Part shown: in pieces, positions 6,477 through 45,282 of the stretch | How positions within the stretch are numbered: the stretch's first letter is position 1 | Layout of the letters: the number at the start of each line of letters is the position of its first letter | NCBI RefSeq assembly: GCF_007362955.1 | Contig: NZ_CP041696.1 | Location: forward strand, 372,001 to 436,000 | Source of the DNA: Lysinibacillus fusiformis | GTDB lineage: Bacteria > Bacillota > Bacilli > Bacillales_A > Planococcaceae | DNA: 64,000 nt | Reading direction: 5' to 3' | Notes under the pieces: generated by a model | Databases searched by the model: none | What the model saw: only the letters and a program-made list of their open reading frames with translations | What the model was told of the DNA's origin: nothing | Position numbers and translations under genes: made by a program

Positions 6477-6572
6477 TTACCATTCCAGCCAATTATCTAA
6501 CGATGGTTCACCTTGCACTATCGATTGTGGAAGGCTATCACGTTCATTTAACCAGTTATAGAAAGGCACAAG
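6477..6572 (-). pseudogene. Duplicated C-terminal fragment of the winged-helix gene
   Basis: The minus strand encodes VPFYNWLNERDSLPQ and continues to NWLEW and a stop. The first part matches the end of the protein at 7094-7969 (VPFYNWLNERDSFPQ), whose own last residues are different. The original C-terminus therefore seems to lie here, separated from its gene by the spore-surface gene at 6664-7077. A copy of the repeated 10-mer is at 6526-6535. Confidence 0.7.
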
Positions 6573-6663
6573 ACTCCCTCAAATAAATTAAATTTCATCG
6601 AGTTAATAACCCTTCTCTCTTACATTTTTATACATATCATTAAAGATGAAAGGAGGGAAAATA

Positions 6664-7077
6664 ATGTGCATAGACAAAAATAATTGTATTTGTTTATCTA
6701 CACCTAGAAAATGCGATGCGTCTGGTCCATTTGTAGCTATCGATATAAAATGCATAAACACACCTGTTGGCAACAACGAAGGTTCAATAATTTCTTTTTC
6801 CTCTGGAATTTCAAATTCTGTAGTTATTATTGTAGGCACTTTAATGGGAGCTAGTCTCATAGGGTTTGGTACTGCTACAAATGCACGTGTTGATTTAGCT
6901 CCACCTGTCGCCGGAGTTCCAGCAGGAATAACTTTTGGTTCGGCAGAAATAGAGCCAGTACATGTCTCCGTTGGTGATCGTTTATTGATGGTATTTTTTA
7001 TTTCATCTGTAATAAATCCTCCTGCATTAATCACCACAGTTACCGGTAATGCCAGTGCGGGTATTAATATTGTATAA
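6664..7077 (+). CDS. BclB-like exosporium protein C-terminal domain
   Basis: 137 residues from ATG 6664 (AAGGAGGG seven bases upstream). The pattern GPFVAIDIKC ... SIISFSSG ... GASLIGFG ... LAPPVAGVPAG ... VGDRLLMVFFISS ... GNASAGINIV matches the C-terminal domain of BclB-type exosporium glycoproteins, which ends in ASAGVN. The collagen-like repeat is absent and the domain is shorter than usual, so it may be a minimal or reduced version. It is the only plus-strand gene here and sits between two copies of the winged-helix gene end. A spore-surface gene on a prophage suggests lysogenic change of the spore coat. Confidence 0.7.
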   Translation: MCIDKNNCICLSTPRKCDASGPFVAIDIKCINTPVGNNEGSIISFSSGISNSVVIIVGTLMGASLIGFGTATNARVDLAPPVAGVPAGITFGSAEIEPVHVSVGDRLLMVFFISSVINPPALITTVTGNASAGINIV

Positions 7078-7091
7078 AAGAATTCCCTCTA

Positions 7092-7124
7092 AACTAAGTA
7101 CATGATCGATACATGCACTTAGTT
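7092..7124. terminator. Hairpin between convergent genes
   Basis: An inverted repeat (AACTAAGT-x-CATG / CATG-x-ACTTAGTT) lies just after the BclB-like gene and overlaps the stop of the opposing winged-helix gene. It lacks a strong T-run, so termination is only probable. Confidence 0.45.
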
Positions 7125-7969
7125 ATTTGTGGAAAACTATCACGTTCGTTTAACCAATTATAAAACGGTACTGGACGTTCTTTGTGGGTCTTGTCCTCCA
7201 CAGATGATGATTTACTAGACTTCATGCTTGAACGCTCAACAGCCTTACTATAAGCCCCTACAAATACAGCTCTTAATGTACTAGCAACTGTCAGTACACC
7301 TTCTTTAATGTCCATAGCAATTTTGAATAGGACGTTCTTAGCTTTTATGAAGTCAGGTGCACTATGAACCTGAGCAGCTAATACAACCTTATGTAATTCA
7401 TCTTTTAGGTTATCTGCTAAAGGTAAGCTATTCATGAAATCAAACAGTATCACTTGATACTCATTCATGTATTCCTTACAAGCTTCTTTCTCAGCGTGAG
7501 CATCTATATATACTTGCTGTAAAGTGCTTGTTTTAAAAGAAGAAAGATTAAAAGATTTAGATGATTGGTTTTCAGATTGTGGAGGACAAACCGCGTCATT
7601 ACTAGCTTCGTTAGCTGTCTCTCGTTGGGACACGCTCGATGGGACATAAGGTAAAATACGATAAATACTAGCCCCTTTTATGCCGTTTAATTTCGTACCA
7701 GGTACTTTATCGATGATGCCCAATGACTCTAATTTCTTAATTGACCGATAAACTGTCTTTGTACTAATCTCTAATGCTGTAGCAATTGTGGCTGCCTTCA
7801 AATGACAAGCCCCCGGATGTTCCAGTGAATGACTAGCAAGCTTGAAAACGATGGCACGTTCACTCTCAGTTAAATTAAAGTAATGAACTGCTATGTGGTC
7901 CTCCAAACTCTTATCCATATCTGCTACTGATTCAAATGTTGTGTATGCTGCTAAGTATTCAAATGCCAT
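7094..7969 (-). CDS. Winged-helix DNA-binding protein with altered C-terminus
   Basis: 291 residues from ATG 7969 (GAGGTG six bases upstream). Residues about 25-110 form a winged helix-turn-helix (LKAATIATALEISTKTVYRS, IKKLESLGIIDK, then a basic wing ending in YRILPY). The remainder is helical and resembles the DnaD-like or RepX-type extension of phage and plasmid replication regulators. The last 14 residues (ITKCMYRSCT region) do not continue as in the duplicated fragment at 6477-6572, so the C-terminus was replaced by an insertion. Copies of the 10-mer repeat at 7193 and 7578 lie in the gene. Likely regulator or replication accessory protein. Confidence 0.55.
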   Translation of the reverse strand: MAFEYLAAYTTFESVADMDKSLEDHIAVHYFNLTESERAIVFKLASHSLEHPGACHLKAATIATALEISTKTVYRSIKKLESLGIIDKVPGTKLNGIKGASIYRILPYVPSSVSQRETANEASNDAVCPPQSENQSSKSFNLSSFKTSTLQQVYIDAHAEKEACKEYMNEYQVILFDFMNSLPLADNLKDELHKVVLAAQVHSAPDFIKAKNVLFKIAMDIKEGVLTVASTLRAVFVGAYSKAVERSSMKSSKSSSVEDKTHKERPVPFYNWLNERDSFPQITKCMYRSCT

Positions 7970-8032
7970 CGTTTTCACCTCACTTTCAATTCACGAACAT
8001 TCAGGATCCATAAAAGTTAATTTCGTTCGTGT

Positions 8033-8251
8033 TTAAAACTTTTGGACGTAGTGTTGCAAATCTTTAAACTTTGCTTTGACATACTCTGGAATGTCTTTTC
8101 CAAAATAAGCTTCATGCAATCCTGATTTTTTATTAAGCTTGCAGACTGTGATGTCCACCTGTACTAATCCAAGATGTTCAAACACCTTATAAGTTATTTT
8201 CCACTGACCATTTTTAGAGAACCATTCACCACGTTTAAGTATGTTCACCAT
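8033..8251 (-). CDS. Unidentified 72-residue protein
   Basis: From ATG 8251 (or ATG 8290 if longer). The protein is strand-rich and basic (NILKRGEWFSKNGQWKITYK, then VQVDITVCKL) and looks like a small folded cytosolic domain. It is divergent from the helix-turn-helix gene at 8422 and its start region contains one of the two operator-like palindromes, so the HTH protein probably represses it. Function unknown. Confidence 0.5.
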   Translation of the reverse strand: MVNILKRGEWFSKNGQWKITYKVFEHLGLVQVDITVCKLNKKSGLHEAYFGKDIPEYVKAKFKDLQHYVQKF

Positions 8252-12378: not shown

Positions 12379-13046
12379 TTAGTTGTTCGTCGCTGTTGAA
12401 TCGTAATATACAATCCAATCAAACGATCAGTTGTCATAGTACCATTCTGTAAATCCTTCAAATGTGAAGCCTGAATAATCCCATCCTTTACAGCCTTAGC
12501 AACATAGTTTTCTGTTTCAGTTTTCATAGCTGGTGAACCTGGATTCCAATTAGTATTTTGTGCCACTTTAATTTCCTCCTTTTTGTCTTCCACAATTAAT
12601 TGGACTTGCATCTTACTGTTACTTGGTACAATTACTTTTCCTAGCACATAACCTTTTGGCATCTTCCAACTTGCTTTAACTTCAAAGTGTGGTCGGTCAA
12701 TACTGCCTACCCAATCACCGCCCCATGTAATGCCTAGCTTTCGTGCGATAGCCCCTACTCGATTAAGAGTAGTCACATCATATAAAGATTGTGGAGGACC
12801 AACAGCAATGTCCCATGCTAAACGTGATTTGTGATTGCTATTTAAGGTCCAGGTAACAATTTGCCCAGGTCTAGTACGACCCTGAGCATATAAGTACTTT
12901 TGGCGTTCCTGTGAGCGATATGTTTCTGTAATGAAGATGTTATAGATGCCTGCCTTGAAGCACTCCTGAAATAGCAATCGACATGCCGTCTGTGCTGCAG
13001 GCGTTAACTCCGCTAAGTCTCGACATGTTGTTGTTACGCTTGTCAT
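12375..13046 (-). CDS. Endolysin, M15 L-Ala-D-Glu/D-Ala-D-Ala peptidase
   Basis: 223 residues. The catalytic domain (about 1-130) has the M15B/C zinc site: N-H-x6-D in SNHKSRLAWD (H72, D79) and DRPHFE (H120). This is the Ply500/CwlK fold that cuts the peptide stems of peptidoglycan. There is no signal peptide, as expected for a holin-released lysin. The C-terminal 60 residues (ENYVAKAVKDGIIQASHL ...) form a helical wall-binding or dimerisation module. It overlaps the holin stop by four bases. Copies of the 10-mer repeat at 12585 and 12790 lie in the gene. Confidence 0.85.
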   Translation of the reverse strand: MTSVTTTCRDLAELTPAAQTACRLLFQECFKAGIYNIFITETYRSQERQKYLYAQGRTRPGQIVTWTLNSNHKSRLAWDIAVGPPQSLYDVTTLNRVGAIARKLGITWGGDWVGSIDRPHFEVKASWKMPKGYVLGKVIVPSNSKMQVQLIVEDKKEEIKVAQNTNWNPGSPAMKTETENYVAKAVKDGIIQASHLKDLQNGTMTTDRLIGLYITIQQRRTTK

Positions 13047-13467: not shown

Positions 13468-13503
13468 CATAATAAAAGCCCTCCACAGATAATCGTGGAA
13501 GAC
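13468..13503 (-). terminator. Terminator-like hairpin made from an inverted pair of the 10-mer
   Basis: On the minus strand GTCTTCCAC and GTGGAGGGC pair around a short loop and are followed by TTTTATTATG. The stem consists of one exact (13478-13487) and one near-exact (13494-13503) copy of the dispersed repeat. It lies between the small gene at 13543 and the holin and could attenuate lysis transcripts. Confidence 0.65.
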
Positions 13504-15899: not shown

Positions 15900-16715
15900 C
15901 TATTTGTATAAATATCTGAAATCAAAAACGACACTATTTACAGTGCCGCCTTCCACAGTTATTGAATTATCTCCTGGTGCCAAAGTTATTAATTTGTGAT
16001 TAGTATGTTTGAATGCACTTAGGCTATTTTTTAAAGTCCTTATTCCTGATAGCTTCAATGTATCTGTGGAGGACAAAGCATTGTTGAATCTATATACATC
16101 ACCAGTTGTATTATTTTTGATTTGTACAAAGCTGCCGAAATTGCCCTTTAAGGTAATCTCTAATGTCGATTGTCGTGGGTCAATCTTATGATTACCGATG
16201 TTTTTAATAACAAAACTGTTTGTATTAAACGTGTAATTGTATGGCGTATCATAATCAATACCTGAACCGAATCCCCATATGTCTGCATCCCATTCACCGT
16301 GGTTTTGTAAATCTAGAGAGGTTCCGAACGATTCGGCAAATAAATCATCCATTCGGAATTCCACATCAAAACTTTCCATACGGCGATTAGGATTTATGGA
16401 TAGTTGTTTGGCTAAACGGACTTTATACCGTTTCCAATGCTCGCGTTTGAATATGATATAAAATGTCTCATCCCTTGCAAACAGCCCATTTAATTCATCC
16501 CTTAAAAGGTCATAATCGCAAATGTCTCGGACAATATACAAAAACGTTACTGTTATAACTCTTTGTTGGTATTGGGTGCCTACTACTAAATTCCCTCTGC
16601 CCTCCACACTTTCAGTCATGTGGTTAAGTTCTAGTGATGGTATGCGGTGAAATAATCGCTTAAGGTTATAATCCTGAATTTCCTTTGTGGTGCCATCTAA
16701 AAATTGAATAATCAT
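15900..16715 (-). CDS. Distal tail protein (Dit-like, sipho_tail family)
   Basis: 271 residues. The N-terminal half (FHRIPSLELNHMTESVEGRGN ... YQQRVITVTFLY) matches the Dit N-domain that forms the ring at the end of the tail tube; the remainder is a galectin-like C-domain. RMESFDVEFRMDDLFAES is a conserved strand and loop of this family. Unusually, it is encoded after the Tal-like gene and a small linking gene rather than before. Three exact copies of the repeated 10-mer lie in this gene (15948, 16065, 16599). Confidence 0.7.
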   Translation of the reverse strand: MIIQFLDGTTKEIQDYNLKRLFHRIPSLELNHMTESVEGRGNLVVGTQYQQRVITVTFLYIVRDICDYDLLRDELNGLFARDETFYIIFKREHWKRYKVRLAKQLSINPNRRMESFDVEFRMDDLFAESFGTSLDLQNHGEWDADIWGFGSGIDYDTPYNYTFNTNSFVIKNIGNHKIDPRQSTLEITLKGNFGSFVQIKNNTTGDVYRFNNALSSTDTLKLSGIRTLKNSLSAFKHTNHKLITLAPGDNSITVEGGTVNSVVFDFRYLYK

Positions 16716-18933: not shown

Positions 18934-21900
18934 TCACCCCTTTGATCCTTGTAATCGTAAATTGTTATTGAATCTACTTCCTAGTTCCTTTTCTACAATA
19001 TCAACAATGTTGAAAGCATCTCGTTCAGATCCAGTACCGTTATAATTTAATGTAATATTGATAGGGGTATTATTGGTATTGTTTGTAGTTACAGATGCAG
19101 CTCTGTTTAAACTGTTAGTATCTGCAGTAAATGACATACTGCCTTCCACAGATGCGGCTAACCTACCAGCAGCATTAGAAACATTATTAATCATGTCATC
19201 CATTCCGATTACTAAACCTTCACCAATGTTTGCGCCGAATCCCATCATTACTCTACTAGGTGATTTGATTTGTAGCGCTTTTGAAATAGTTTTGCTTACA
19301 GATTCAGCGATTTCTTGCGCCTTCTTCTGAATTGCATCAGTTGTGGAGGACAAGCCTTTTAACAAGCCATTCCCTGCATCTCTACCTATTTGCTCTAAGC
19401 TTGATAGTTCAGTAGATGTAGATTGAGTTACAGATTTAATCTTTGCATTCCACTCTTTTTCAAGTGTAGTTAATTGTTTATTGGCTACCTCTCGTAAAGA
19501 CTTAATTTGTTTATCAGTATCATCTTTCATACCTTTTAATTCAGTTTCAGCTTGTGTTCTGGCTAACTTTGATTTCTCTTTATACAAATTACTGTATTGT
19601 TGCAATTGCGAATCTGTAAGCTGATTAAGAGCAACTAATTGTGGTAAAGCATTTGGACCCATCTGGCGCAATTCTTCTAGAAGCCCATCATCGATTGCCC
19701 TACCTGAGATTTTTTCAATTTCGCTTTGCCATAGCTTGAAACCATCTACTTGTGAAAATAGATTAGCTATTAATTGTTCCCCTGTTACATCAATCTCAAC
19801 TTTAAATGCATCAAAAAGCCCCTTGAATGATACAAGAGACTTAGCACGTTTATCTACAGCATCTTCATATGCTTTTGTTAAAGCTTCTTCCTGCTTAATT
19901 AAGTCCTCGTTAATTTTGCTGATTTGATTAGAAAAGTCAATGTTAATTGCAGTAATTTCTTTATTAATTGCCTCAGTAGCTTTTTTATAATTCTTCTGAG
20001 CTTCTATACGCTCTTTGCTTCCTTCCTCGAATAATCCGATTGTTCTTTCCCAAATCTTTACTTCCTCAACAAGTGATAGTTCCTCTGAGGATTTTTTATC
20101 TGCTATATATTGCTTAATGTTTTCTAAATCAGCTTTATTGAGGTCCTCTACAGCTTTGTTGTAGGCTTTCTGTACCTCTACACGTTCCTTAGAGGATATA
20201 TCAAAATGTTCTAAAGACTCTTTCCAAATTTTCGCTTCTTTTTCTAAGCTTAATTCTCCTAAAGATTTTTTGTCTTCGATAAATAATTTAATCTCTTTGA
20301 GCTTGTCTTGCTGATCTTTAGCGAGCAAATTCCAAGAATCTTTTTTAGCTTTCTTTTCAATATCAGCGATTTTCTTAGCAGCATCTTCTTGAATCCGTTG
20401 AATTTTAATATTTTCATCCTGTGTAGTTTTACGCTTTTTTGATGCAGCTGTACGATAGATTTTATCTACATCTTCCTTAGACCGTTTTTCAATCTTTGCG
20501 ATCTCAACATTAGCTTTATCAGTGATTTTCTTTTCTTCAGATTTATAATGGTCAGTGATGTCAATCAAGTTATTTCCTAAATCTTTCATGACATTTGCTA
20601 CTCGTTCATTTTTGTCCTCAATACCAATAGCTAGACCTTCGCCGACATCTTTACCAATTGCAATCATGACACGGGATGGTGATTTACGCTGTAAGACATT
20701 TGATACAGAAGTTATTACTTTATTTCCTAATTCAGCAGCTTTCTTACCAACAGCATCAATCATGTCCCCCATACCATTTATTAAACCTCGGACAATATCT
20801 TTACCAATCTCAACTAGATTAACATTTTTGAAAAATTTTTCGATATTACTCCATATTTTTTTTGCTGTTTCCTCTACCGTTTTCCAAGCACCTTCCCAGT
20901 CGCCTTGGATTAATTTCAAAACGGTTTGAATAATACCTAAAACTAAATCTAGTGCTGTACCTATTGTTAATTTGATAGATTCCCAAACATATTTAACAAC
21001 TCCTGCAATAATCGGCCAAACAATTTCGAAGATCCCTTTGATAATACCCATGACCATTTCTATATTACCTTTAATATTATCAAAATGAAATTTCACTAAA
21101 GTAAAAATAGCTTCTCCGTTTTCGTCCCAAAATTCTTTTAGTTTATCAAGCTGTTCTTTTACAAAATCAACAACTCCGCTTAGTTTTTCGTCTACTGTTG
21201 TTTTTATAAAATCATAGGCAGTGGATGTAATTTCTTTTAAGGAATCAGTAACTTTTGTGTAATATTCTTCGATTTTATCGAATATTTCAGAGTGTTTATT
21301 TTTGAATACTTCCCACTTAGATAAAATTTCACCGGTTTCCCAATTCACTTTATCTACATGTTCATCAGCTTGCTTTTGCGCGGTTTCTATAATATTTTGA
21401 TGCTGATCTTTTGCCCAGTAAATTGATTCGTCTCTTGCCTTTTTTGCTTCAGCAATCATCTTATCAGCTTGCTCAGTTGAAATATCTCCTGTTTCATCGC
21501 GCATTTGGATAATTTGAGCAATCCTTTTTTCATAAGTGTCATTTGCTTCTTTTAGTACTTCTTCTTTTTGTTTTACTGCATTTTTAACAACCTCTGCAGC
21601 TTGTTCAGCGGATATAATAGATGCATTTTCTTTCATACGTTCGAGTATTACTTTCTGCTCTAATTCACTTTCACTGAACACTCTAACCGCATTCTCTTTC
21701 ATACTTTCGTTGTAATTATTGATAATTTCTTGCTCACGCGCTGTCAATTCTCGCTTCTCATCTAAAGCCTTTTGAGTAATTGCCTTTACCCGTTCATTCA
21801 TAGTATTTTGTTCTTGGAGTTCTCTTTCATGACGTTTTTGAGTATTAACAATTATTTTCTCTTCTTCTTCAGATGATAAAGCTGACGAATTCATAAAGAA

Positions 21901-23925
21901 CGCTTTTAAATCAGTCAATTGTTCAGTATTACGTTTCTTCATGCCTTCCACAATTTGAGTATTCATTTGGTCAAACTTTGAAGTAAGTTCTGCAGCCATC
22001 TCACTTGTTACTTTTGTGGAAGTCACGTACATATTTGCAACAGATTGTGATGCACTTTCACTTAAATCAAAGAATCCATTTAGAGCTTCTTTAGTAGCGT
22101 CAGAAACACCTTTTCCGAACCTCTCAACACTTGGCAATGCATCATTGCTCATGTGTTTTGCAAATGCGATAGTGCCAATTGTTAATCCGCCTATAGCTGC
22201 AACAGTCAATCCGATGGGTCCAGTCAATGCTGCAAAAGCAGAACCTAATACAGCAGATGCCCCTCCAGCTCCTGCAATAGCTGTGGACGCAGCTCCCAGA
22301 GCAGATATGATGGTACCGATTGAAGAAATAAACATACCAACAACTAAAATAACGGGACCAATAGCTGCCGCTAATCCTGCAATAACTAAAATAACTAATT
22401 TCATGGATGAATCCATTTCAGCAATTTTTGTGATTAATGGTGATAAGGTATCGACTATTTGAATTAAAAAAGGAAGCATGATATCCCCGAAAGAAATACC
22501 GACTTCCACAACTTTATTTTTTAATATAGCTAATTGGGATGCTGTAGTTTTGTACCTTTGTTCAGCTTCATTAGTTAATGCTGTGTTTTCTTCCCATGCA
22601 CTTGTTGACGTTTCGACTGCTGATGATAATAAATCACTAGCTCCAACCATACGCATCATGACGTCTGATTCGTATATTCCTTTGATGCCCATATCTCTTA
22701 AAACTTCAGTTAGGTTTTCTCCACGTGAAGATATTGTCGCAAGTCCGTTTACAACTGCATCTAATCCATCGATAGCACTGTTATCATAGAGTTTCTTAAA
22801 TTCACCACTAGACATTTGAGCCACCTCTGCCCACGTGCCTAAAGCTGCTCCACCATCCATGGCAGCTGATTGCATCTTTTTAAGAATTGTTGTCATGGCA
22901 GTACCGCCCATTTCAGCTTGTATACCTAAACTGGACATCGTACCTGCTAATGCCATAATTTGTGCTTCTGACATTCCTACTTGTGCGCCTTGTGCAGCAA
23001 GTCTCATACCCATGGACATAATTTCAGATTCAGTAGTCGCCATTGAGTTACCAAGGCCAACTATTGAAGATCCTAAACGGTCAAAATTATCCTGACTCAT
23101 GCCAACGATATTAGCAAAACGAGCAAACTCTGTTGCTGCTTGTTCACGTGTCATATTGGTTGATTCACCTAAATCAATAATCGTTCGGGAAAAGGATAAT
23201 ATTTTATCTTCTGCAATTCCGAGTTGTCCGGCTGATTCAGCAACCGCTGCAATATCTGATGCGCTTGCTGGGAGTTCTTTTGCCATATCTCGAATACCTT
23301 TTTCTAACTTTTTGAAACCTTCCTCACTTGTATCAACAGTTTTTCGAACGCCTGCAAATGCCGATTCAAAGTCAATAGCCGCCTTTGCCGCACCAACGCC
23401 GAGTGCTGCAAGTGGCGCTGTAACTTTCATTGATAAATCTTTACCAATGTCTTTCATTTTGTCGCCGACTGCTTTTAGTTTTTCACCTGCAGCAGTAGCA
23501 GCTGCGCCAAATCTCCCCCATGCAGTTTGGGATTGTGCTAACTCACGTTCTTGACGTTCCAACTCTGCTGTCGTTTCATTCAACTCTCGCTGCGTACGGT
23601 CCATTTCTGCTGAAGCTCTGTTAAGCTGCACAGCCAATCGTTCAGCTTGTACCGAGTTTTCTCCATACTGTTGTTTAGCCTTTTCATATTCTTGGGCTAA
23701 ACGCCGTACTTTTGTTTGTTGTCCTTCAAGTAAACGACTATATGCCTCTTGCTTTTGACGTAATCCATCAATAGATGAGCCCCATTCACGCCCTCGATTT
23801 TGTAAGCCTCGTATTTCTTGACCCATTGCTTGGAGTGTCCTGTTCATACTTGCGACAGAGCGCTCGAACTGTGCATTATCAAGCGATAATTTAACCCTTA
23901 AATTCCCTACATCACCTGTTGTCAT
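18934..23925 (-). CDS. Tape measure protein (TP901 family)
   Basis: 1663 residues. The N-terminal 140 residues are a coiled coil, then the conserved TP901 core (AAIDFESAFAGVRKTVDTSEEGFKKLE ends it at about 200; ELPASASDIAAVAESAGQLG), membrane-like helices around 510-590 (ILVIAGLAAAIGPVILVVGMF) that could enter the host membrane, and long coiled coils. Two copies of a QRKSPSRVM / QIKSPSRVM-GIGEDVGEGL-like motif mark repeat units. Length predicts a tail of roughly 240 nm at 0.15 nm per residue. Four exact or near copies of the 10-mer lie in the gene. Confidence 0.92.
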   Translation of the reverse strand: MTTGDVGNLRVKLSLDNAQFERSVASMNRTLQAMGQEIRGLQNRGREWGSSIDGLRQKQEAYSRLLEGQQTKVRRLAQEYEKAKQQYGENSVQAERLAVQLNRASAEMDRTQRELNETTAELERQERELAQSQTAWGRFGAAATAAGEKLKAVGDKMKDIGKDLSMKVTAPLAALGVGAAKAAIDFESAFAGVRKTVDTSEEGFKKLEKGIRDMAKELPASASDIAAVAESAGQLGIAEDKILSFSRTIIDLGESTNMTREQAATEFARFANIVGMSQDNFDRLGSSIVGLGNSMATTESEIMSMGMRLAAQGAQVGMSEAQIMALAGTMSSLGIQAEMGGTAMTTILKKMQSAAMDGGAALGTWAEVAQMSSGEFKKLYDNSAIDGLDAVVNGLATISSRGENLTEVLRDMGIKGIYESDVMMRMVGASDLLSSAVETSTSAWEENTALTNEAEQRYKTTASQLAILKNKVVEVGISFGDIMLPFLIQIVDTLSPLITKIAEMDSSMKLVILVIAGLAAAIGPVILVVGMFISSIGTIISALGAASTAIAGAGGASAVLGSAFAALTGPIGLTVAAIGGLTIGTIAFAKHMSNDALPSVERFGKGVSDATKEALNGFFDLSESASQSVANMYVTSTKVTSEMAAELTSKFDQMNTQIVEGMKKRNTEQLTDLKAFFMNSSALSSEEEEKIIVNTQKRHERELQEQNTMNERVKAITQKALDEKRELTAREQEIINNYNESMKENAVRVFSESELEQKVILERMKENASIISAEQAAEVVKNAVKQKEEVLKEANDTYEKRIAQIIQMRDETGDISTEQADKMIAEAKKARDESIYWAKDQHQNIIETAQKQADEHVDKVNWETGEILSKWEVFKNKHSEIFDKIEEYYTKVTDSLKEITSTAYDFIKTTVDEKLSGVVDFVKEQLDKLKEFWDENGEAIFTLVKFHFDNIKGNIEMVMGIIKGIFEIVWPIIAGVVKYVWESIKLTIGTALDLVLGIIQTVLKLIQGDWEGAWKTVEETAKKIWSNIEKFFKNVNLVEIGKDIVRGLINGMGDMIDAVGKKAAELGNKVITSVSNVLQRKSPSRVMIAIGKDVGEGLAIGIEDKNERVANVMKDLGNNLIDITDHYKSEEKKITDKANVEIAKIEKRSKEDVDKIYRTAASKKRKTTQDENIKIQRIQEDAAKKIADIEKKAKKDSWNLLAKDQQDKLKEIKLFIEDKKSLGELSLEKEAKIWKESLEHFDISSKERVEVQKAYNKAVEDLNKADLENIKQYIADKKSSEELSLVEEVKIWERTIGLFEEGSKERIEAQKNYKKATEAINKEITAINIDFSNQISKINEDLIKQEEALTKAYEDAVDKRAKSLVSFKGLFDAFKVEIDVTGEQLIANLFSQVDGFKLWQSEIEKISGRAIDDGLLEELRQMGPNALPQLVALNQLTDSQLQQYSNLYKEKSKLARTQAETELKGMKDDTDKQIKSLREVANKQLTTLEKEWNAKIKSVTQSTSTELSSLEQIGRDAGNGLLKGLSSTTDAIQKKAQEIAESVSKTISKALQIKSPSRVMMGFGANIGEGLVIGMDDMINNVSNAAGRLAASVEGSMSFTADTNSLNRAASVTTNNTNNTPINITLNYNGTGSERDAFNIVDIVEKELGSRFNNNLRLQGSKG

Positions 23926-26526: not shown

Positions 26527-26707
26527 CTTCATCACTCGTTTCAGCAATGAAAATTTGCTTGTATTTATTTTCTGTTGTAGATAACTCTGTGATACGGGCT
26601 TTAGTTGCACGTTTGCCCTCCACAGGATAGTAGTCACCCATTTCATAAATATGTCCATCGTGTTTCACTTCTTTAAAGCGCTGTACGACCTTATATTTCT
26701 TTGCCAC
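26513..26707 (-). CDS. Small capsid-region protein, 64 aa
   Basis: KYKVVQRFKEVKHDGHIYEMGDYYPVEGKR forms a small SH3-like beta unit, followed by an acidic tail. Similar 60-residue proteins between major capsid and connector genes are frequent in Gram-positive siphoviruses. Possibly a capsid decoration or connector accessory protein. The VEG residues come from a copy of the repeated 10-mer at 26615. Confidence 0.55.
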   Translation of the reverse strand: MAKKYKVVQRFKEVKHDGHIYEMGDYYPVEGKRATKARITELSTTENKYKQIFIAETSDEDDTN

Positions 26708-31849: not shown

Positions 31850-31975
31850 ACCTCCCCCTCCCTCCTATGAGTGTTTTTTGCATTTATTTTTAGACAGTTG
31901 GGGGACCCGTCGGTCTGGGGACTTTTATATATTGAAAAACCTTTTTGACCGGGGGTATGTGGTTTTAACATTTCT
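31850..31975. other. Probable cos region
   Basis: A gap of 126 bases between the HNH and terS genes, with GC-rich clusters in AT-rich phage DNA: a C-rich tract at 31853-31865, GGGGGACCCGTCGGTCTGGGG (two parts, within 31910-31920) and GACCGGGGGT near 31950. HNH-terS-terL phages have their cohesive ends here. I cannot place the nick positions. Confidence 0.5.
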
Positions 31976-35127: not shown

Positions 35128-35345
35128 ATTTCCCACACTTTCTTTGTGTGCCAACCTTCTTTAATATACTGCTGCACCCATTCTTTTTTATATGGCATAA
35201 TGACACTTGCTTCGCATCCATCTACGATTATTGCCATTTCTATAAAACGCGTATATGGATTGGGTATTGCCTTCCACAATCTGCCCTGTGGTTGTTTCTT
35301 ACTTTTCACCGACTGAACAATAGGAATCCCATTGCGCATGTTCAT
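35124..35345 (-). CDS. Conserved small phage protein
   Basis: 73 residues, homologue of 2903-3142 in the remnant. The two differ mainly at the C-terminus. Contains a copy of the 10-mer at 35269 read in the LWKA register. Unknown function; conserved position before the MazG-like genes. Confidence 0.6.
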   Translation of the reverse strand: MNMRNGIPIVQSVKSKKQPQGRLWKAIPNPYTRFIEMAIIVDGCEASVIMPYKKEWVQQYIKEGWHTKKVWEI

Positions 35346-35350
35346 GATGA

Positions 35351-35551
35351 TTAAAAAGCACCTTGTCGTTCATATACCTCTTGCCAATCGATTGAATCAT
35401 GTTCATCCATACACGTTTTGCACCATGCTTTACCCTGTGAATCAAAGCGTATTTGATTATGTTTTTCTGTACCTGGTATATCCCATCGTGCTGTATTTTC
35501 TTCAGTCAAAACTGTATTACAAATTGGACAATTAATTGTTTTTGCATTCAT
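35351..35551 (-). CDS. Zinc-ribbon protein, 66 aa
   Basis: Two CxxC pairs (CPICNTVL near residue 8 and CKTCMDEH near 44) form a zinc ribbon. It occupies the slot held by an unrelated 51-residue gene in the remnant. The start overlaps the stop of the nuclease gene by one base. Unknown function. Confidence 0.6.
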   Translation of the reverse strand: MNAKTINCPICNTVLTEENTARWDIPGTEKHNQIRFDSQGKAWCKTCMDEHDSIDWQEVYERQGAF

Positions 35552-36090
35552 TAAAAAGCACCTCGTTTCAGATAGTTTTTCATTTGGTGATAGAAATGGT
35601 AGTAAATAAAATTCCCACTAAACTTATTATCTAAGTAGACAATTTCAAAGCCATAACGAGCCTTGAAAGTATTCAACGAGCCAAGTAATGCAAGTGGGTC
35701 GTATTTACTCCTGTATTGTCCATTTATGATTTTTTTGTACCCTTCTGGATCTTCAAGCAAGAGTGTGAACGGTATATTTTGTGACCGAATTAATTCATTT
35801 TCAAAGCGTGTACGCTCGTCCTTACCTAAGTTGCCAACAATCTCATCTACACTGGCTTTTCGTTCTACTCGGCTATTTAAATAAATGTCTCGCGCAATAC
35901 CCAACTCTTCATTCTTAGGAATCATTGCTCCATAATCGCCAGTGTCGAGTTTTTTTAATTTGATTGGCACATCCTTACTGCGTAAATAATCCATGATATG
36001 ACCGTTTACTTGTTCACGAGTATCAACCACGATTGTTAGTGTTTTTAGGATTTTGTTTAATTCGGTGTCTGTGTAATGGTAGTGAATCAT
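35551..36090 (-). CDS. ERCC4-type nuclease
   Basis: 179 residues. VDTREQ (22-27), DTGDYG (49-54) and VERKAS (75-80) form the XPF-type active site. It is likely to cut branched DNA in phage replication or recombination. Only a handful of residues differ from the remnant copy at 3306-3845. Co-translated with a small membrane protein upstream. Confidence 0.85.
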   Translation of the reverse strand: MIHYHYTDTELNKILKTLTIVVDTREQVNGHIMDYLRSKDVPIKLKKLDTGDYGAMIPKNEELGIARDIYLNSRVERKASVDEIVGNLGKDERTRFENELIRSQNIPFTLLLEDPEGYKKIINGQYRSKYDPLALLGSLNTFKARYGFEIVYLDNKFSGNFIYYHFYHQMKNYLKRGAF

Positions 36091-37181: not shown

Positions 37182-37492
37182 TTCCTTACATTTCAGTAGT
37201 TACTATATTTCTTTAAAAATGGCGTTTTAACCCCTATTAAATAACTCAGTTACTTTTAAGTAACTCCTTTGAACCTTACAGCCACATAGGTTTAAGCAAT
37301 TTTAGTTAAAATCGTTACTCAGAAAGTGCATTACGCTCTTATATATATATATATTTATATTTTTTATTTTTTTATTAATATAAAAACCAAATAACAAAAG
37401 TAACTTTAGTAATATAAAAACACTCTTAAACTATTGATATGACTGGATTTCGAAGAGTTACTTATGATAGTTACTTTGTTAACTCAAAGTTA
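37182..37492. other. AT-rich region with iterated AGTTACT, candidate origin
   Basis: AGTTACT or its complement occurs at 37198, 37248, 37259, 37399, 37456, 37469 and 37488 (seven copies in 300 bases). Two form the perfect 18-bp palindrome AGTTACTTTTAAGTAACT (37248-37265). A long AT tract (37340-37382) lies in the middle. It directly follows the primase-helicase gene. Iterons next to an AT-rich stretch are typical of replication origins, but repressor sites are also possible. Confidence 0.55.
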
Positions 37493-39862
37493 CTAAACTA
37501 GCTTAAATGATGTATTTTCAGCCTCTTTTGTAACTATTTTTTCTTCAAAAGTAACTCCTTTAGGGGCACGCTCTTGTAAAGTAATTCCAATGAAAAAGTT
37601 TTTGTTTCCTGTGCCACGTTCTTTTTTAAAGCCCTTAGTTTCCAACATTCGGTAAAAACTTCGATTACTTACCGTACGTTCACCTGATTTATAACCAAAA
37701 CTGTCATAGACGTTGTATAATTCTTTTGCTTCGATTTTGATATTTTCGTTGTTTTTTTCTACATAGCAACACTCTGCTAAAAACGGTCCGAGAATGTCCA
37801 TGTCTTCTTTATAGTTACCTGTTGCTTTTGCTACCACTGCTGGCTCGATTAAACCGTCCTTCTGCCACTTTAAGCAGCCTTCAATTGCCCAGTTAAGTAT
37901 TCCACTCATTTCTAACGACAACTTCTCTGGAAGCTTTTTATCACGCTTATGCGCTGGCAAGTTTAAATCAAATGGAATCAATTTAACTCGGCGCCATATA
38001 CCCTCATCCAAGCCACCGATAATTGGTTTATGGTTAGTAGTGAAGAACACTTTAAACTCGGGAATGTACTCAAAATACTCTTGTCGTAAAAAGCGAGCTA
38101 ATACAGGTTCACCGCCTGTTATTTGCTTAACGAATGATTCTGAAAGCTTTTCGCCTTCCTCACTCTCAATTGCTGATACAAAGCGCGATCCTACTAATCT
38201 GGCAATATCGTTATTGGCACCAGTTTCTTTTTTCTTGATAAAAGTATCTGATTTAGCTTGCTTGCCATATTCACCTACAAGGTCTTTGATTGTGTTGATA
38301 AAAGTTGATTTACCATTACTACCTCCACCAACCAAGAACATCATTATTTGCTCTGAAATATCACCAGTGAGGCTATAACCAATCAGTCGTTGCATGTATT
38401 CTGACAGCTCTTTATCTCCCAAAAATATTTGGTCCAAAAACGCCAACCAATTTGGACATTTTGCATTTTCTTCATAAGAGATATTTGTTATTTTCGTTAG
38501 CTTCAATTCCCTATCATGCGGTTGTAGCTTTCCTGTTTTCAGGTCCACTACTCCGTTTGCTACATTAAGCAAATATTTATGTTGGTCAAAGTCACTACGA
38601 TCTCCTGGAACCAATACTTTTAAATCTTTAATGGCACTTTCACGCACATTATGCTTTTCACAATGCCTAGCCCATTTTTGCTCTGTTTCATCTGTTGATT
38701 CACCAAGCTTGCGAACGACCTTGGCTACGATGCGATGTAACTTTCCTTTTTCGTCATATTCCCAATACTTGCCGTTCCAGATGTACCAACCAACTGATGG
38801 AATGAGACGAATAACGTGGCCATATTCGTATGCAATACGTTCTGCATTTCCTAAGTCAGTTAACTTGAATTTACGAGCTGGCTTATCTACTCCCTCTACC
38901 ACATCATCATTGTGGAAGCTGAATGAAAATTCGCTGTCATTTTGATGGTCCAATACAGTTGTAGTGGTAGATGATATAGCTTCCGCAATAGTTCGCTCTC
39001 CGTATGTTTCTCCTGTATCTGAAAAGTGAATTCTGTCCCATTTATCTCGCATAAGGCTTGTTTCCCTAAACATTGAATCCATTCTTGATGCACTTTTACC
39101 AGTCCAGAAAGCTAAATGATTACATAATGCCAAGTCACTACTTGAATGGTCATCATTTATTAAATTTCCGTTATACAGAGAGCGTATTTCGTCACCTGAT
39201 TTACTACGGAACATTCGCTCCCAAAGTGCATCATTTGAAAGCTTGATTTCATCTTTTTCAAACTCGGCTAAATTGACTCGACCTTGCACATCACTGTCAT
39301 CAAAATACTTTTCAAATATCTCGGCCAACTCATCTGTACGATCATAAATTTCATTGGCATTTTCACGGTTACCAGTCATAGTGAAGTAGCGTCCGTATTG
39401 ATAAATCTCTAGACCATGCTTTGTACTTTTACGCCCAGTACCTACTACAGACTGTGGAAGACTACCTTTGATGATGATGTGAATGCCTGTACCACTCACA
39501 CTAAATTCTGTATAGCTGTCTAATGTATCTATAATTTCTTGAGCAAAAGAGTTAATTATAGGATTCACTTTTTCCGTATCATCTGCTGCATACGTAACAC
39601 ATTTATCAATATCAATGCCGATGTACGAATCTTGACGACTAAAGACAAAGCCAATACCATCTGCATTTGATTCTGTATAGAACTTGGCAGCTGTCGCAAA
39701 TGTGGACCATGTTCTACGGTCATTTGACCGTGCTTCATTCCCATTTACTTGATATGGAATTTTTGTATAGCGTCCGCCTTTTTCTTCTGACCTCCACAGG
39801 ATCCATTGAGGTAGCAACCTTAACTCTGATGGTATTTCGTTAAAATTAATTGGTGCTTTCAT
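37493..39862 (-). CDS. Primase-helicase of the P4/D5 type
   Basis: 789 residues. N-terminal primase-like domain (residues about 1-200: PQWILWRSEEKGGRYTKIPY, GIGFVFSRQDSYIGIDIDKC with paired aspartates) followed by a D5_N region and an SF3 helicase with Walker A GGGSNGKST (about residue 510). VFFTTNHKPII and GIWRRVKLIPF further on are SF3 sensor and arginine-finger motifs. It probably opens and primes the phage origin. The iteron region lies just downstream. Confidence 0.9.
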   Translation of the reverse strand: MKAPINFNEIPSELRLLPQWILWRSEEKGGRYTKIPYQVNGNEARSNDRRTWSTFATAAKFYTESNADGIGFVFSRQDSYIGIDIDKCVTYAADDTEKVNPIINSFAQEIIDTLDSYTEFSVSGTGIHIIIKGSLPQSVVGTGRKSTKHGLEIYQYGRYFTMTGNRENANEIYDRTDELAEIFEKYFDDSDVQGRVNLAEFEKDEIKLSNDALWERMFRSKSGDEIRSLYNGNLINDDHSSSDLALCNHLAFWTGKSASRMDSMFRETSLMRDKWDRIHFSDTGETYGERTIAEAISSTTTTVLDHQNDSEFSFSFHNDDVVEGVDKPARKFKLTDLGNAERIAYEYGHVIRLIPSVGWYIWNGKYWEYDEKGKLHRIVAKVVRKLGESTDETEQKWARHCEKHNVRESAIKDLKVLVPGDRSDFDQHKYLLNVANGVVDLKTGKLQPHDRELKLTKITNISYEENAKCPNWLAFLDQIFLGDKELSEYMQRLIGYSLTGDISEQIMMFLVGGGSNGKSTFINTIKDLVGEYGKQAKSDTFIKKKETGANNDIARLVGSRFVSAIESEEGEKLSESFVKQITGGEPVLARFLRQEYFEYIPEFKVFFTTNHKPIIGGLDEGIWRRVKLIPFDLNLPAHKRDKKLPEKLSLEMSGILNWAIEGCLKWQKDGLIEPAVVAKATGNYKEDMDILGPFLAECCYVEKNNENIKIEAKELYNVYDSFGYKSGERTVSNRSFYRMLETKGFKKERGTGNKNFFIGITLQERAPKGVTFEEKIVTKEAENTSFKLV

Positions 39863-41165: not shown

Positions 41166-41882
41166 TTATTTCTCTCCCTTTTCTTCTTCAATTGTGGAAG
41201 GCAGAACAAAAATTTCTTCTTGCTTGCATCCCTTGCGATCATCTAATTGGTTTTTTGCATAAATACTGTTTGTTCCTTCTAACACAAACCCCCGATTACC
41301 ATCTGCTTTAATCATTAATCGGCCAACAACATCACATAGCCCTAAAACATTATTGATGATTTTTGCGTTGATTTGAGGATAGCTGCGGTTGTATCCTTGA
41401 CCGTCAGATGAAGTGTATAAATCCGTTGTTTCCCAAGCTGTAAAAACAATACGATTTGCTAGGTTTTTCATCCATCTGAATGAATTAACAACTCGGAATT
41501 GCATTTTTTGATAATCACCTTGAGCTGGCACACCTTGATTTTTTCCGATGTATCCAAGATTCGATAACAAGCAGCGTTCTAATTCTGATACGTTATCAAT
41601 GGCGATATTGTCATACTGACCTTTGATAGTTTCTAAATGAAGCAATAGCGCTTGCCAAAAATCCCAAGTGTTTTGATTATCAACATAAATAATGTCGATA
41701 TTCGGATTACCTTTTAGTACATGACTTGTACGATCTACATCAAGTACCAATGTTTTACCTGGTAAAAAGTTTAGCGTGTGCGATTTCCCTAGTCCTGGCG
41801 GGCAATAAGTTAAATATGTCTTGCCGGGTTTGTCCGAAATCTCACTTGCATTGTGAGCACTAAAGTCGAATTCCTGTGTCAT
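41166..41882 (-). CDS. Sak4-like RecA-fold ATPase (AAA_24)
   Basis: 238 residues from ATG 41882; a GTG at 41891 in frame is also possible. Walker A CPPGLGKS (27-34), a conserved VLDVD strand and KNLANRIVFTAWE later match the AAA_24/Sak4 phage recombinases. With the adjacent SSB-like gene it probably forms a single-strand annealing or exchange system. Between AGGAG and the ATG lies an exact copy of the repeated 10-mer (41883-41892). A fragment of its homologue is inverted at 4253-4393. Confidence 0.85.
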   Translation of the reverse strand: MTQEFDFSAHNASEISDKPGKTYLTYCPPGLGKSHTLNFLPGKTLVLDVDRTSHVLKGNPNIDIIYVDNQNTWDFWQALLLHLETIKGQYDNIAIDNVSELERCLLSNLGYIGKNQGVPAQGDYQKMQFRVVNSFRWMKNLANRIVFTAWETTDLYTSSDGQGYNRSYPQINAKIINNVLGLCDVVGRLMIKADGNRGFVLEGTNSIYAKNQLDDRKGCKQEEIFVLPSTIEEEKGEK

Positions 41883-41903
41883 GCCTTCCACACTCCTAAT
41901 CTA

Positions 41904-42249: not shown

Positions 42250-42336
42250 TTAATAGATAATTTTCTTTTGTTTGAAATCTACGAATATTACATTGTGGAA
42301 GGCCTGTGCATATGCCTGTTGAAGTTGTTCGAGCAT
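42250..42336 (-). CDS. Possible 28-residue peptide
   Basis: ATG 42336 with AGGAGGG eight bases upstream opens 28 codons (MLEQLQQAYAQAFHNVIF ...). The good ribosome binding site and operon position suggest a translated peptide. A copy of the 10-mer at 42294 is read as AFH here, a third register in that orientation. Confidence 0.4.
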   Translation of the reverse strand: MLEQLQQAYAQAFHNVIFVDFKQKKIIY

Positions 42337-42936: not shown

Positions 42937-44067
42937 TTATTCAACACCTCCATAAATAGCGTTAGTATCGTTGATGATTGTTAAGTATTTAGCATGACAC
43001 CAACTATCATCATCATCACTACCACCAATAGGCTTGCGGTACACATGATCACCATATGTCACTTTAGTAACTTCTCTTTGCTCCGGATATGCGCTACCAC
43101 CGACTACAATTTGTCCTTTAGTAAATTCCATAGGCTGCACCGCCTGTTCAAACTCACTAACATCAAGACCAAGCGCTCGTCCTAGTGCGATAGCTTTTCC
43201 AATGTGTTCGTTGAATACGTCAGATGGATTGCATTTTGCACGATTGATTAAATCAGGTTTATTTCCAAGTCGATCACCTTTAGAATTAGTTAAGAATACT
43301 AATGCAGTAACTTTATTATTTTTCACATGTAAATCAACGTTATAGAAATTATTTCGATAAAACATATGCCCTTCATTAACCATTGGAGCATCTCTGTTTT
43401 TACCACGTTCGATAACTTGCTCAACAAACTTCATCGCCTTCTCAATAATTGCAGCACGTTGTTGATTTGGTGTTAATGGTTTGGATTCGATTAGTTCGTA
43501 GACATCCACGTTTTCTGGTGTACGACCAAATCCTTCTTCGTAAACTCGATATTTGCCATTTTCATTTGTTAAAAATCTAGGTTCGCCCCATGCTTCAATA
43601 ACTTCATATGGCTTCCCTTCCGTAATTGCGTTTTCGTTCGTTTTTTCAACATGTTCTTGCGTAAATACAACCACATCACCATATTCAGCTTCACGATCAA
43701 CCTTACGATATTGCTTACCTTCAAATTCGATGATGTCCTCCACAAATAATTGTGTGGAAGGCTCATCCGCATAACTTACACCATCAATGACTTTACTTTC
43801 ACGAATTTGATGCACGATTAATTTCAGTTCAGCTACCTCGGTTTCGAGTGCTGTGATACGTTGGTTTTTGGTTGGTTTTGAATCTGCTAATTTAAAATTC
43901 TTATTTAAATAGTTGAAAGTTATTTTATATGGTTGACCATAATTATTTTTTAAACTAACACCTTCACTAAACGTGTCCAAAACTTTGTAATTTTGATTTT
44001 TAGTAAAGAACCCTGTATTTTTTTTACTAATATATATAAATGAATCCCCAACATTAAACTTTGTCAT
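42937..44067 (-). CDS. Large hypothetical phage protein
   Basis: 376 residues with repeated small beta modules (KFNVGDSFIYISKKN, EDIIEFEGKQYRKVDREAEYGDVVVF, VTYGDHVYRKPIGG), each resembling SH3-like KOW or DUF-type units found in phage early proteins, and a coiled coil (RITALETEVAELKLIVHQIR). No enzyme motif. A pair of inverted copies of the 10-mer (43735-43762) lies in the gene. Confidence 0.5.
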   Translation of the reverse strand: MTKFNVGDSFIYISKKNTGFFTKNQNYKVLDTFSEGVSLKNNYGQPYKITFNYLNKNFKLADSKPTKNQRITALETEVAELKLIVHQIRESKVIDGVSYADEPSTQLFVEDIIEFEGKQYRKVDREAEYGDVVVFTQEHVEKTNENAITEGKPYEVIEAWGEPRFLTNENGKYRVYEEGFGRTPENVDVYELIESKPLTPNQQRAAIIEKAMKFVEQVIERGKNRDAPMVNEGHMFYRNNFYNVDLHVKNNKVTALVFLTNSKGDRLGNKPDLINRAKCNPSDVFNEHIGKAIALGRALGLDVSEFEQAVQPMEFTKGQIVVGGSAYPEQREVTKVTYGDHVYRKPIGGSDDDDSWCHAKYLTIINDTNAIYGGVE

Positions 44068-44252
44068 TTCGCATCCTCCTGTGGTAAAATACCAGTGATT
44101 TGATTTTGATTTGATTTTTCAACTTGCTCGCTCTCGGTTGCAGCCTTGAGTGAGTTTTTTTGTGCCTCAATTTGGGCATTCTGTGCATCTTCGATGTCTT
44201 GCCAATAGTCGCCTTCACGGTCGTACTCTGCGTGTGTGTAGCCTATACGCAT
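44064..44252 (-). CDS. Hypothetical small phage protein
   Basis: 62 residues, hydrophilic, Gln-rich (DAQNAQIEAQKNSLKAATES). Overlaps the next gene by four bases; no recognisable domain. Confidence 0.4.
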   Translation of the reverse strand: MRIGYTHAEYDREGDYWQDIEDAQNAQIEAQKNSLKAATESEQVEKSNQNQITGILPQEDAK

Positions 44253-44260
44253 GTGGTCAC

Positions 44261-44518
44261 CTACTTAATTAACTTGATTGCACGTTGCAGTACATCAACA
44301 ACATTCTGATTCTTCATTTCAGAAACCATTTTCTCAAGCGCTATTGTTACTTCTGATTTTTCTGTGTTAGGCTGATATTTTTGTAGAATGATTTGATTGT
44401 CATTGATGAATATTTCTACTGGATCCTTTTCTTCAATATTCAACGTGCGACGTAACTCCTTTGGAATAACTAAACGACCTAATTCATCGACTTTACGAAC
44501 GATACCTGTTGATTTCAT
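44261..44518 (-). CDS. AbrB/SpoVT-type transcription regulator
   Basis: 85 residues. KSTGIVRKVDELGRLVIPKELRR and IEEKDPVEIFINDNQIIL form the swapped-hairpin AbrB DNA-binding domain; the C-terminal helix could form dimers. In Bacillus, AbrB proteins act in the transition to stationary phase and sporulation. A phage copy may influence host or phage gene timing. Overlaps the Cse60-like gene by one base. Confidence 0.85.
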   Translation of the reverse strand: MKSTGIVRKVDELGRLVIPKELRRTLNIEEKDPVEIFINDNQIILQKYQPNTEKSEVTIALEKMVSEMKNQNVVDVLQRAIKLIK

Positions 44519-44670
44519 TACTCGTTCACCCCTATTTTTTTATAAACAACCATGATGTACTCGCCATCGTTATTCATAGCAATTTTCACATCAATAACCT
44601 TTATAGAATCGTGGTGCTCTGCTAACCATTTGTTAATGCCGTTCTCATCATTGCAATAAACTTGTATCAC
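44518..44670 (-). CDS. Cse60-like small protein
   Basis: 50 residues from GTG 44670 (GGAGGTG nine bases upstream). IQVYCNDENGINKWLAEH and IKVIDVKIAMNNDGEYIMVVYKK resemble sporulation protein Cse60 of Bacillus and its many phage relatives. The function of the family is unknown. Coupled to the AbrB-like gene. Confidence 0.6.
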   Translation of the reverse strand: MIQVYCNDENGINKWLAEHHDSIKVIDVKIAMNNDGEYIMVVYKKIGVNE

Positions 44671-44687
44671 TATTCGTTCACCTCCAC

Positions 44688-44828
44688 TCAATTATCAGCA
44701 GCACGTTTAAGCGCTAATGTTTTCAACAATGTGGAATACAACACTTCATCCAATGGCAGTCCTTCAATTTCATGAACATCAAACTTTTTCAACTGTTCAA
44801 TGACTGCTTTGCGCTTCATCGGCTTCAT
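44688..44828 (-). CDS. Small helical phage protein, 46 aa
   Basis: ATG 44828 (ATG 44819 possible) opens 46 codons: KRKAVIEQLKKFDVHEIEGL, then LLKTLALKRAADN. It overlaps the upstream gene by 32 bases in another frame. Unknown function. Confidence 0.5.
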   Translation of the reverse strand: MKPMKRKAVIEQLKKFDVHEIEGLPLDEVLYSTLLKTLALKRAADN

Positions 44829-45282
44829 CATCGACATTTAGGAAATACCCCTCCGTGAATGCTTTGACTTCTTCAACCCCATCAATCAAACCAAATAAAC
44901 GTTGTTGTCTAAGCTTGTACTCATGTTGCTTTCTTGATAGTTGACTATCAAACGGTAAGTCTGGCTTACTTTCCATACCTTCAATTGCTATATTTGTTAG
45001 TTCAATATTTTCATGCTCAAGCATTTTATCAAGATGCTCAATAAGCCTGTTGTTGCCTTCCACAATTCTTGCTTCAAGCTCTGGATATTCAAGCGCTGTC
45101 TTTAAATCAAGGAAACCATCGTAAATATCTGCTGCATTACCTTCTAAGGATTTGTCAGCATAAGTTTTATCCAAGCGCCCTTTTTCATCTCTTGTGTTAA
45201 CTGATGTTGGCTCACCATCGCGATTATAATGAATTGTTAACACTGACATTTTTGTACCTTTAACGTTAATTACTGCTTTCAT
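44797..45282 (-). CDS. Hypothetical early phage protein
   Basis: 161 residues with an N-terminal beta hairpin (KMSVLTIHYNRDGEP) and a helical C-terminus. Contains VEGN at a 10-mer copy (45055). Starts the long leftward early operon together with the small genes to its right. No family recognised. Confidence 0.5.
   Translation of the reverse strand: MKAVINVKGTKMSVLTIHYNRDGEPTSVNTRDEKGRLDKTYADKSLEGNAADIYDGFLDLKTALEYPELEARIVEGNNRLIEHLDKMLEHENIELTNIAIEGMESKPDLPFDSQLSRKQHEYKLRQQRLFGLIDGVEEVKAFTEGYFLNVDDEADEAQSSH

Follow-up and report, generated by a model that had tools for sequence, protein, structure and literature searches.

A selected ten-base word dispersed through a Lysinibacillus prophage and related phages, with a possible Chi-like role

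Results

The window analysed here is a 64,000-nucleotide stretch of Lysinibacillus fusiformis DNA (contig NZ_CP041696.1, positions 372,001 to 436,000), which carries a prophage and a prophage remnant. Through this phage DNA recurs a ten-base word, GYCYTCCACA, which on the gene-sense strand is the G-rich TGTGGARGRC. Positions below are those of the window, and plus or minus gives the strand of a copy. The remnant holds two copies (2157–2166 and 3066–3075, both plus), the second in a context near-identical to that of the prophage copy at 35269. It also holds a second ERCC4-type nuclease gene (3306–3845) like that of the prophage (35551–36090), with the near-identical motif context beside it.

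The leftmost prophage copy lies outside called genes and is antisense to the phage genes (6526–6535, minus). The DnaD-like gene has a sense copy (7193–7202, plus; kept in 3 of 21 aligned homologs) and an antisense copy (7578–7587, minus; 5 of 22), and so does the endolysin gene (sense, 12585–12594, plus, 21 of 26; antisense, 12790–12799, minus, 25 of 34). At 13478–13503, a copy (13478–13487, plus) and a one-mismatch inverted partner (13494–13503) form a hairpin over the called holin start, followed by a T-rich stretch. Two sense copies (15948–15957 and 16599–16608, plus) and one antisense copy (16065–16074, minus) fall in the Dit gene, and the same numbers in the tape-measure gene (sense, 19141–19150 and 21943–21952, plus; antisense, 19342–19351, minus). 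Further sense copies on the plus strand lie in a small open reading frame (24053–24062 in 23944–24084), in the gene at 26245–26658 (26615–26624) and in the head protease gene (28077–28086); antisense copies on the minus strand lie in the open reading frame at 24147–24479 (24168–24177) and in the portal gene (28721–28730; kept in 3 of 11). The primase gene carries an antisense copy (39453–39462, minus; 44 of 84). The Sak4 gene carries another (41193–41202, minus; 4 of 36), and a sense copy overlaps its start (41883–41892, plus; 11 of 11). The remaining copies are one outside called genes (42294–42303, minus), an inverted pair (43735–43762; first copy plus, second, at 43753, minus) read as PST...VED in a gene for 376 amino acids (42937–44067), and a sense copy (45055–45064, plus) in a gene for 161 amino acids on the minus strand (44797–45282). 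The last gene encodes an orphan protein family that accompanies the word in the first phage group described below. Two landmarks matter for what follows. The putative replication origin is an AT-rich gap directly after the primase gene (37182–37492), with AGTAACT/AGTTACT repeats and no motif copy, and the putative cos region, placed by gene order only, lies between the HNH and small-terminase genes (31850–31975). The only copy between them is a sense one in an open reading frame of 73 amino acids (35269–35278, plus).

The window contained 27 exact matches against 0.29 expected, and the largest count among 100 dinucleotide shuffles was 2. The prophage holds 25 of them (6526–45064; 0.1 expected), the remnant 2 and 15 kb of host DNA none, which reproduces the counts of the original prediction. 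When the prophage was screened for k-mers, the five strongest 9-mer pairs were all pieces of GYCYTCCACA. The whole genome (4.97 Mb) has 66 matches (35+31) against 29 for the reversed control pattern. Of these, 28 lie at genome positions 370977–417064, that is, in the prophage and remnant, with one sitting 1 kb left of the window, and eight lie at 598–628 kb, in a region with about 3.1 kb in common with the window prophage. Twenty 20-kb samples of chromosome (400 kb) gave 3 copies against 1.6 expected, so the host chromosome is not enriched and nothing like the prophage density was found there. The statement that the word is confined to phage DNA is nearly, though not entirely, true: elsewhere, chromosomes hold chance-level copies and some hairpin pairs with the same stem. 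Spacing in the window was near random (coefficient of variation 1.02, simulated 0.93). Copies were spaced more evenly than in 94% of simulations at 7 of 36 loci, the window showing no even spacing. The prophage copies comprise 14 sense and 11 antisense; over 33 high-density loci, GYCYTCCACA lay on the gene strand in 84 copies, on the opposite strand in 153 and outside called genes in 53. Alternation of orientation, suggested by 19 changes against 12.3 expected in the window (p=0.005), was dropped because p fell below 0.05 in only 1 of 29 other loci.

Of the 25 prophage copies, 21 lie inside the 54 listed genes. Synonymous shuffling within genes left a mean of 1.57 in-gene copies (maximum 5 in 300 runs) and a pooled synonymous redraw left 0.70 (maximum 4 in 300 runs). 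These codon shuffles rule out a protein-level explanation and bear out the earlier observation that the word occurs independently of reading frame. Copies also persist in relatives. In related loci, the exact pattern was kept in 35/96, 32/82, 39/72 and 57/70 cases in the 60, 70, 75 and 80% identity bins, whereas control 10-mers with two tolerant positions were kept in 5, 9, 18 and 24%; at 85% identity the figures were 15/23 and 36%, and the 95% bin held a single case, not kept (0/1). As the loci are related, these comparisons are not independent, and alignments below 200 bp or above 96% identity were dropped. Retention varied widely by site, with the extremes of 11/11 at 41883 and 3/21 at 7193. 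Together, the shortfall in shuffled genes and the retention above control 10-mers indicate that selection acts on the DNA, and GYCYTCCACA is a real, selected, phage-associated word. Around it, T is favoured before and a purine after, with little beyond (185 non-redundant contexts of 472 distinct, those more than 60% alike being grouped). Passive spread without present function, by insertion, gene conversion or biased mutation, is highly improbable on these data. Inverted terminator pairs could seed copies and a chance-level chromosomal background exists, but flanks are unrelated beyond about 3 bases and retention was 36–81% against 5–24% for controls across the 60–85% identity bins.

All 9 non-redundant pairs of inverted copies separated by less than 30 bp were convergent, and all five tested pairs, including the one over the window holin start, folded as stems (z −2.2 to −6.0). 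At least one such pair was present in 23 of 32 genomes of the genus; the reversed control gave none. Inverted pairs are reused as terminator stems, a secondary use that leaves the single copies inside genes unexplained. In the family of the 376-residue protein (window 42937–44067 and homologs), the inverted pair encoding PST...VED tends to persist in a linker while surrounding residues vary.

A search of 31 further genomes of the genus gave six with 61–88 copies, many in prophage-looking clusters. Similar clusters occur in G090 and G104, two genomes that belong to other genera in the same family. We took 18 element sets as motif-rich: 15 with 3.5–8.9 copies per 10 kb, one with 12.5, and two thin ones (G006C9, 1.5; G090C8, 3.0), several of the 18 being fragments. 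The ten sets taken as poor include 'own2', a stretch of the window's own genome whose phage nature was not verified; one empty set was dropped. Virus records carry the word at high density as well (G227, 29 copies in 39.5 kb; G234, 32 in 53.5 kb; G236, 31 in 45.6 kb; reversed control 0–1 each), as does a 16.8-kb plasmid-like record with a ParM-like gene (G228, 16 copies). G227 combines an early replication module common to the window prophage with myovirus-type baseplate genes in its late half, and in the 11.3 kb of G227 compared by tblastx there was no similarity to the window prophage. Phage association, as first proposed, holds, and the extent given then was too narrow, since the phages that carry the word differ in their late modules and another phage group is marked by a sister word. 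Other phages have few copies or none: phi105 0, PSA 0, B025 1, vB_BhaS-171 1, Wrath 6, Curly 1, the first 50 kb of Lietuvens 0 and of PVJ1 1. In Curly (L233), GAGGCGGC/AGGCGGCT occurred 11 times against 0.3–0.4 expected each, another possible dispersed phage word.

Two elements carry motif-free modules. SDFMU_Pfc, a phage of Lysinibacillus fusiformis, has 13 copies, all between 20 and 40 kb of its 41 kb, and none in its first 19 kb; in prophage G001A, the replication–recombination module (391,998–400,555) is free of the word and the remainder carries it. These modules may have been imported recently, in which case the word would be the property of a gene pool and not of the host. The primase family is insufficient as a determinant: it has relatives in phi105 and PSA (0 copies) and B025 (1 copy), and G001A carries the word with another replication module (named by eye). 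High counts in two further genomes were set aside as other phenomena. In G074, GCCTTCCACA recurs at steps of about 123–125 bp, the pattern of a dispersed and in part tandem repeat that has no relation to the phage motif. In G099 it forms inverted pairs with a spacing of 1336 bp, which suggests an element like an insertion sequence.

Density outside the primase gene was counted in 55 virus loci that bear a primase and have sufficient sequence upstream; it separated 17 high loci (median 5.5 per 10 kb) from 38 low ones (median 1.1). The low group had top words of its own, among them CTTCCACA and, in 84 distinct contexts where 3.0 were expected, TTGTGGAAGA, with the core C-N-TCCACA, and in phage Wrath TGTGGAAG occurred 20 times against 1.2 expected. 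The two groups thus have sister words, TGTGGARGRC in group A and TTGTGGANG in group B.

Sense copies predominate overall (102:42 distinct contexts in 16 loci). Orientation was compared along the genome, between the putative origin and cos. The origin was placed directly after the primase gene, where an AT-rich gap with AGTAACT-type repeats is found in the window, phi105 and rho14 (L129, L293), and cos was placed by gene order near the HNH and terminase genes, not mapped. PSA, B025 and LP-101 have other post-primase repeats, and CAACTATCCACC repeats occur in the three Listeria phages examined (L131, L132, L294). As an origin iteron of the primase module the motif itself was rejected, the gap holding AGTAACT-type repeats and no motif, with no clustering at the origin. 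In phage lambda, the orientation of cos sets the active orientation of Chi. At 2.4–10 kb after the primase start, raw sense:antisense counts were 65:0 for group A and 70:1 for group B; permuted words of matched composition were 79–83% sense in the same interval and some copies are similar to each other, so these raw counts overstate the bias. We therefore dropped copies sharing 28 of 50 flank bases and kept loci with both primase and HNH anchors; some records enter twice as overlapping loci, and the flank filter removed the repeats. Group B here is every anchored locus with fewer than 4 motif-A copies per 10 kb, which takes in G090C2, elsewhere counted as rich. Between origin and cos, the strict counts were 18:0 for A (24 loci) and 19:1 for B (44 loci), against 66:33 and 49:29 elsewhere (pooled, 37:1 against 115:62; p=1.8e-5). 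One-mismatch words in the same interval were pooled at 131:41, less sense-biased than the motifs' 37:1 (p=0.0015).

This polarity bears on two alternatives. A strand signal of phage replication, used to prime synthesis or restart forks on the lagging-strand template and set by the primase-adjacent origin, would fit the shift of orientation near the putative origin, the distance of 0.4–3.2 kb between neighbours in 185 of 250 pairs, and an antisense excess in the primase gene (14/32 and 29/57 before strict deduplication). The strict primase counts are 3/7 and 4/9, however, and not significant; copies to the left of the origin follow no antisense rule (21:15 and 27:21), and the origin repeats are a different word, which makes this reading distinctly unlikely. 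An RNA element is very unlikely. Here, sense UGUGGARGRC would pair with a regulatory RNA or bind a protein, its R positions allowing A–U or G–U pairs, consistent with the overall sense bias, with variable positions that are both A or G on the sense strand and with the folding of the tested inverted pairs; outside the origin–cos interval, however, 33/99 (A) and 29/78 (B) independent copies are antisense.

We also followed the host's own candidate Chi word. The Chi words given in the excerpts cited are polar and G-rich on one strand (GCTGGTGG, AGCGG and GAAGCGG; PMC11442139, PMC8022716), GAAGCGG being the word given for S. aureus (PMC11442139). In the chromosome sample, GAAGCGG occurred 57 times against 22.4 expected (2.5-fold), was the commonest of its 105 permutations and was split 45:12 in favour of the G-rich strand. 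GRAGCGG is absent from the window prophage (2.5 expected) and AGCGG occurs there 14 times (24.8 expected), and over 20 motif-A loci summed the motif reached 203 against 1.5, AGCGG 144 against 230.7 and GRAGCGG 14 against 26.2. The motif-poor virus record G231 (L251, L252; first 40 kb), by comparison, has 39 GRAGCGG against 3.8, about tenfold enriched. G231 has one motif copy in 50.9 kb and the same source-genome number as G230, which has 6 copies in 40 kb. Some phages thus look as though they rely on the host word and others on a word of their own, although the split is not strict. GAAGCGG is also enriched in Staphylococcus phages L286–L288, most strongly in phiSP119-2 (L287; 17 against 1.4), where each of the five GRAGCGG copies to the left of the terminase genes is in sense orientation; in 2638A and QT1, antisense copies lie near the right ends. 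GYCYTCCACA itself as the host Chi is ruled out by the lack of chromosomal enrichment.

As a candidate partner of the word we considered the 161-residue protein (44797–45282). Gene clustering placed it in 11 of 18 motif-rich element sets (G227, G104C5 and G228 included) and 0 of 10 poor ones, and by tblastn it was present in 15 of 17 high-density loci and in none of the 38 of low density. A similar skew is seen in other small early genes, the one at 44064–44252, for example, occurring in 16 of 17 high and 0 of 38 low loci, so lineage is confounded with the motif. A profile hidden Markov model of the protein matched 3 of 37 low-group loci (L094, L038, L039) and, in part, the poor set PVJ1. The protein therefore cannot be the general reader, and its candidacy is limited to the first group. 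Structure prediction gives it a small beta sheet with an antiparallel coiled coil (mean predicted local distance difference test score 80, predicted template modelling score 0.55). No fold in PDB or BFVD matched it at E≤0.001, and no solved structure matched its sequence below E 0.6; further searches gave no Pfam match over cut-off, no PADLOC match and no tblastn match among phage records.

Two further alternatives invoke a DNA-binding protein. The main named rival is a stoperator-like system, in which a phage repressor would bind each asymmetric site as a monomer and block transcription across the prophage. Excerpts on cluster A mycobacteriophages describe just such an asymmetric word in many copies over temperate phage genomes (PMC9283540, PMC6550527). 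Phage-wide repressor sites, as the original prediction had suggested, fit less well here, and we regard them as unlikely: most copies (21/25) are inside genes, the prophage has both orientations (14:11), and SDFMU_Pfc keeps copies in its late half though its first 19 kb has none. A homolog of the prophage CI-like repressor was present in 2 of 18 other element sets, a number that includes control sets and counts one region twice (G090C14 and L225); by locus, 7 of the 17 high-density and 9 of the 38 low-density ones had a homolog. A binding site for some other phage DNA-organising protein, acting in packaging, segregation or genome entry with no role in transcription, is a rather doubtful proposal. 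It suits copies that run across genes and gaps, near-random spacing in the window and presence in the plasmid-like record with a ParM-like gene. Against it, no candidate is common to all rich sets, spacing is not uniform in kind (the more even loci noted above), and the sense bias between origin and cos needs a separate reason.

Discussion

The best single reading of these data is that the word is a Chi-like polar signal for an end-degrading helicase–nuclease, specified by the phage; we put its probability at roughly one in three. Recognition would be of TGTGGARGRC on the gene-sense strand. The enzyme would enter phage DNA at a free right end, such as cos, and move left toward the origin; on meeting the word it would either stop or switch from degrading to recombining, so that phage DNA is spared and concatemer formation helped. 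The lack of enrichment in the host chromosome implies a reader other than unmodified host AddAB, either a form of host AddAB that a phage product has altered or an enzyme of the phage itself. The P22 protein Abc2, described in an excerpt as re-programming RecBCD (PMC9836394), provides a precedent for such alteration. Among the roles first suggested for the word, a recombination hot-spot fits best: the word is G-rich, biased in polarity between the putative origin and cos in pooled counts, and accompanied in the first group by an AGCGG deficit.

Several findings weigh against this Chi-like reading. In the chromosome sample, in which GCAGGTG reaches 75 against 26.8, GAAGCGG is missing from the top 15 7-mers by over-representation and is thus only a candidate host Chi. 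The AGCGG deficit is a sum over related loci; it is absent from G227 (38 against 34.4) and G104C18 (31 against 20.1), and the 29 group-B loci have none (AGCGG 349 against 337.6, GAAGCGG 43 against 30.1). In group A, near-miss words are also mostly sense in the origin–cos interval (24:3; B 107:38), so that A alone is indistinguishable from its near-misses and its polarity rests on pooling the two groups. Near-miss words lean to sense more strongly in this interval than elsewhere (p=0.003), which makes part of the bias regional composition. Motif A is no denser from origin to cos (4.1 per 10 kb against 4.3–6.5 elsewhere), unlike Chi in lambdoid phages, and the primase and upstream genes contain many antisense copies. 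Ten specific bases are also long for a Chi. Each of the 32 genus genomes has one AddB above the cut-off, with no sign of a second AddAB. No gene cluster occurs in all motif-rich and zero motif-poor sets, and the best candidate, the 161-residue protein, is missing from most group-B loci.

A wider version of the Chi-like reading, possible but more tentative, is a private phage Chi code common to phages of related hosts. A phage product would alter or replace AddAB so that it reads TGTGGARGRC and not the host Chi, sparing phage DNA and not host DNA; different elements would converge on the word, and the second group would use TTGTGGANG. If the word is Chi-like, these phages use their own 'do not degrade' word instead of the host's, which would change how the distinction of self from non-self DNA in Gram-positive bacteria is viewed and would amount to a sequence read-out of the recombination machinery that a phage obeys. 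Whatever the mechanism, the word, which is under selection and not enriched in the host, marks a mobile gene pool spanning phages with different late modules and a plasmid-like record, and it offers a defined bait with which to search for its reader protein. The earlier view that no described system with this sequence is known agrees with literature searches on Chi, phage-altered Chi, dispersed motifs and Lysinibacillus repeats, which showed no account of GYCYTCCACA; among 12 publications containing at least two of the six 10-mers, none, judged by title, concerned bacterial phages.

With Chi of RecBCD, AddAB and RexAB the word shares a G-rich strand, over-representation and a spread through genes, and in pooled counts it shows a polar bias, with sense copies prevailing from putative origin to cos; it differs in its ten bases, in the lack of host enrichment and in the lack of concentration between origin and cos. 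Excerpts on lambdoid phages report Chi to be concentrated between the replication genes and terminase, and phages with a recombinase plus a RecBCD inhibitor to avoid Chi (Bobay 2013, PMC3784561); the window prophage carries Sak4-like and Mu Gam-like genes. Like stoperators, the word is asymmetric and present in many copies over a temperate phage genome; unlike them, it lies mostly in genes, in both orientations and in elements without a common detectable repressor. Stoperators lie mainly in short intergenic gaps and in a single orientation relative to transcription. The SPBRE sites of SPbeta, likewise a repeated word in a phage of a Bacillales host, are intergenic operator-type elements, whereas most copies of our word are inside genes; an excerpt ties SPBRE to the MrpR/YopR master repressor (PMC10516654). 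The DNA uptake sequences of Neisseria and Haemophilus resemble the word in a length of about ten bases, in lying in genes and in the reuse of inverted pairs as terminators, and differ from it in the host, which is not enriched in our word (66 copies in 4.97 Mb). Uptake sequences, by contrast, reach hundreds of host copies.

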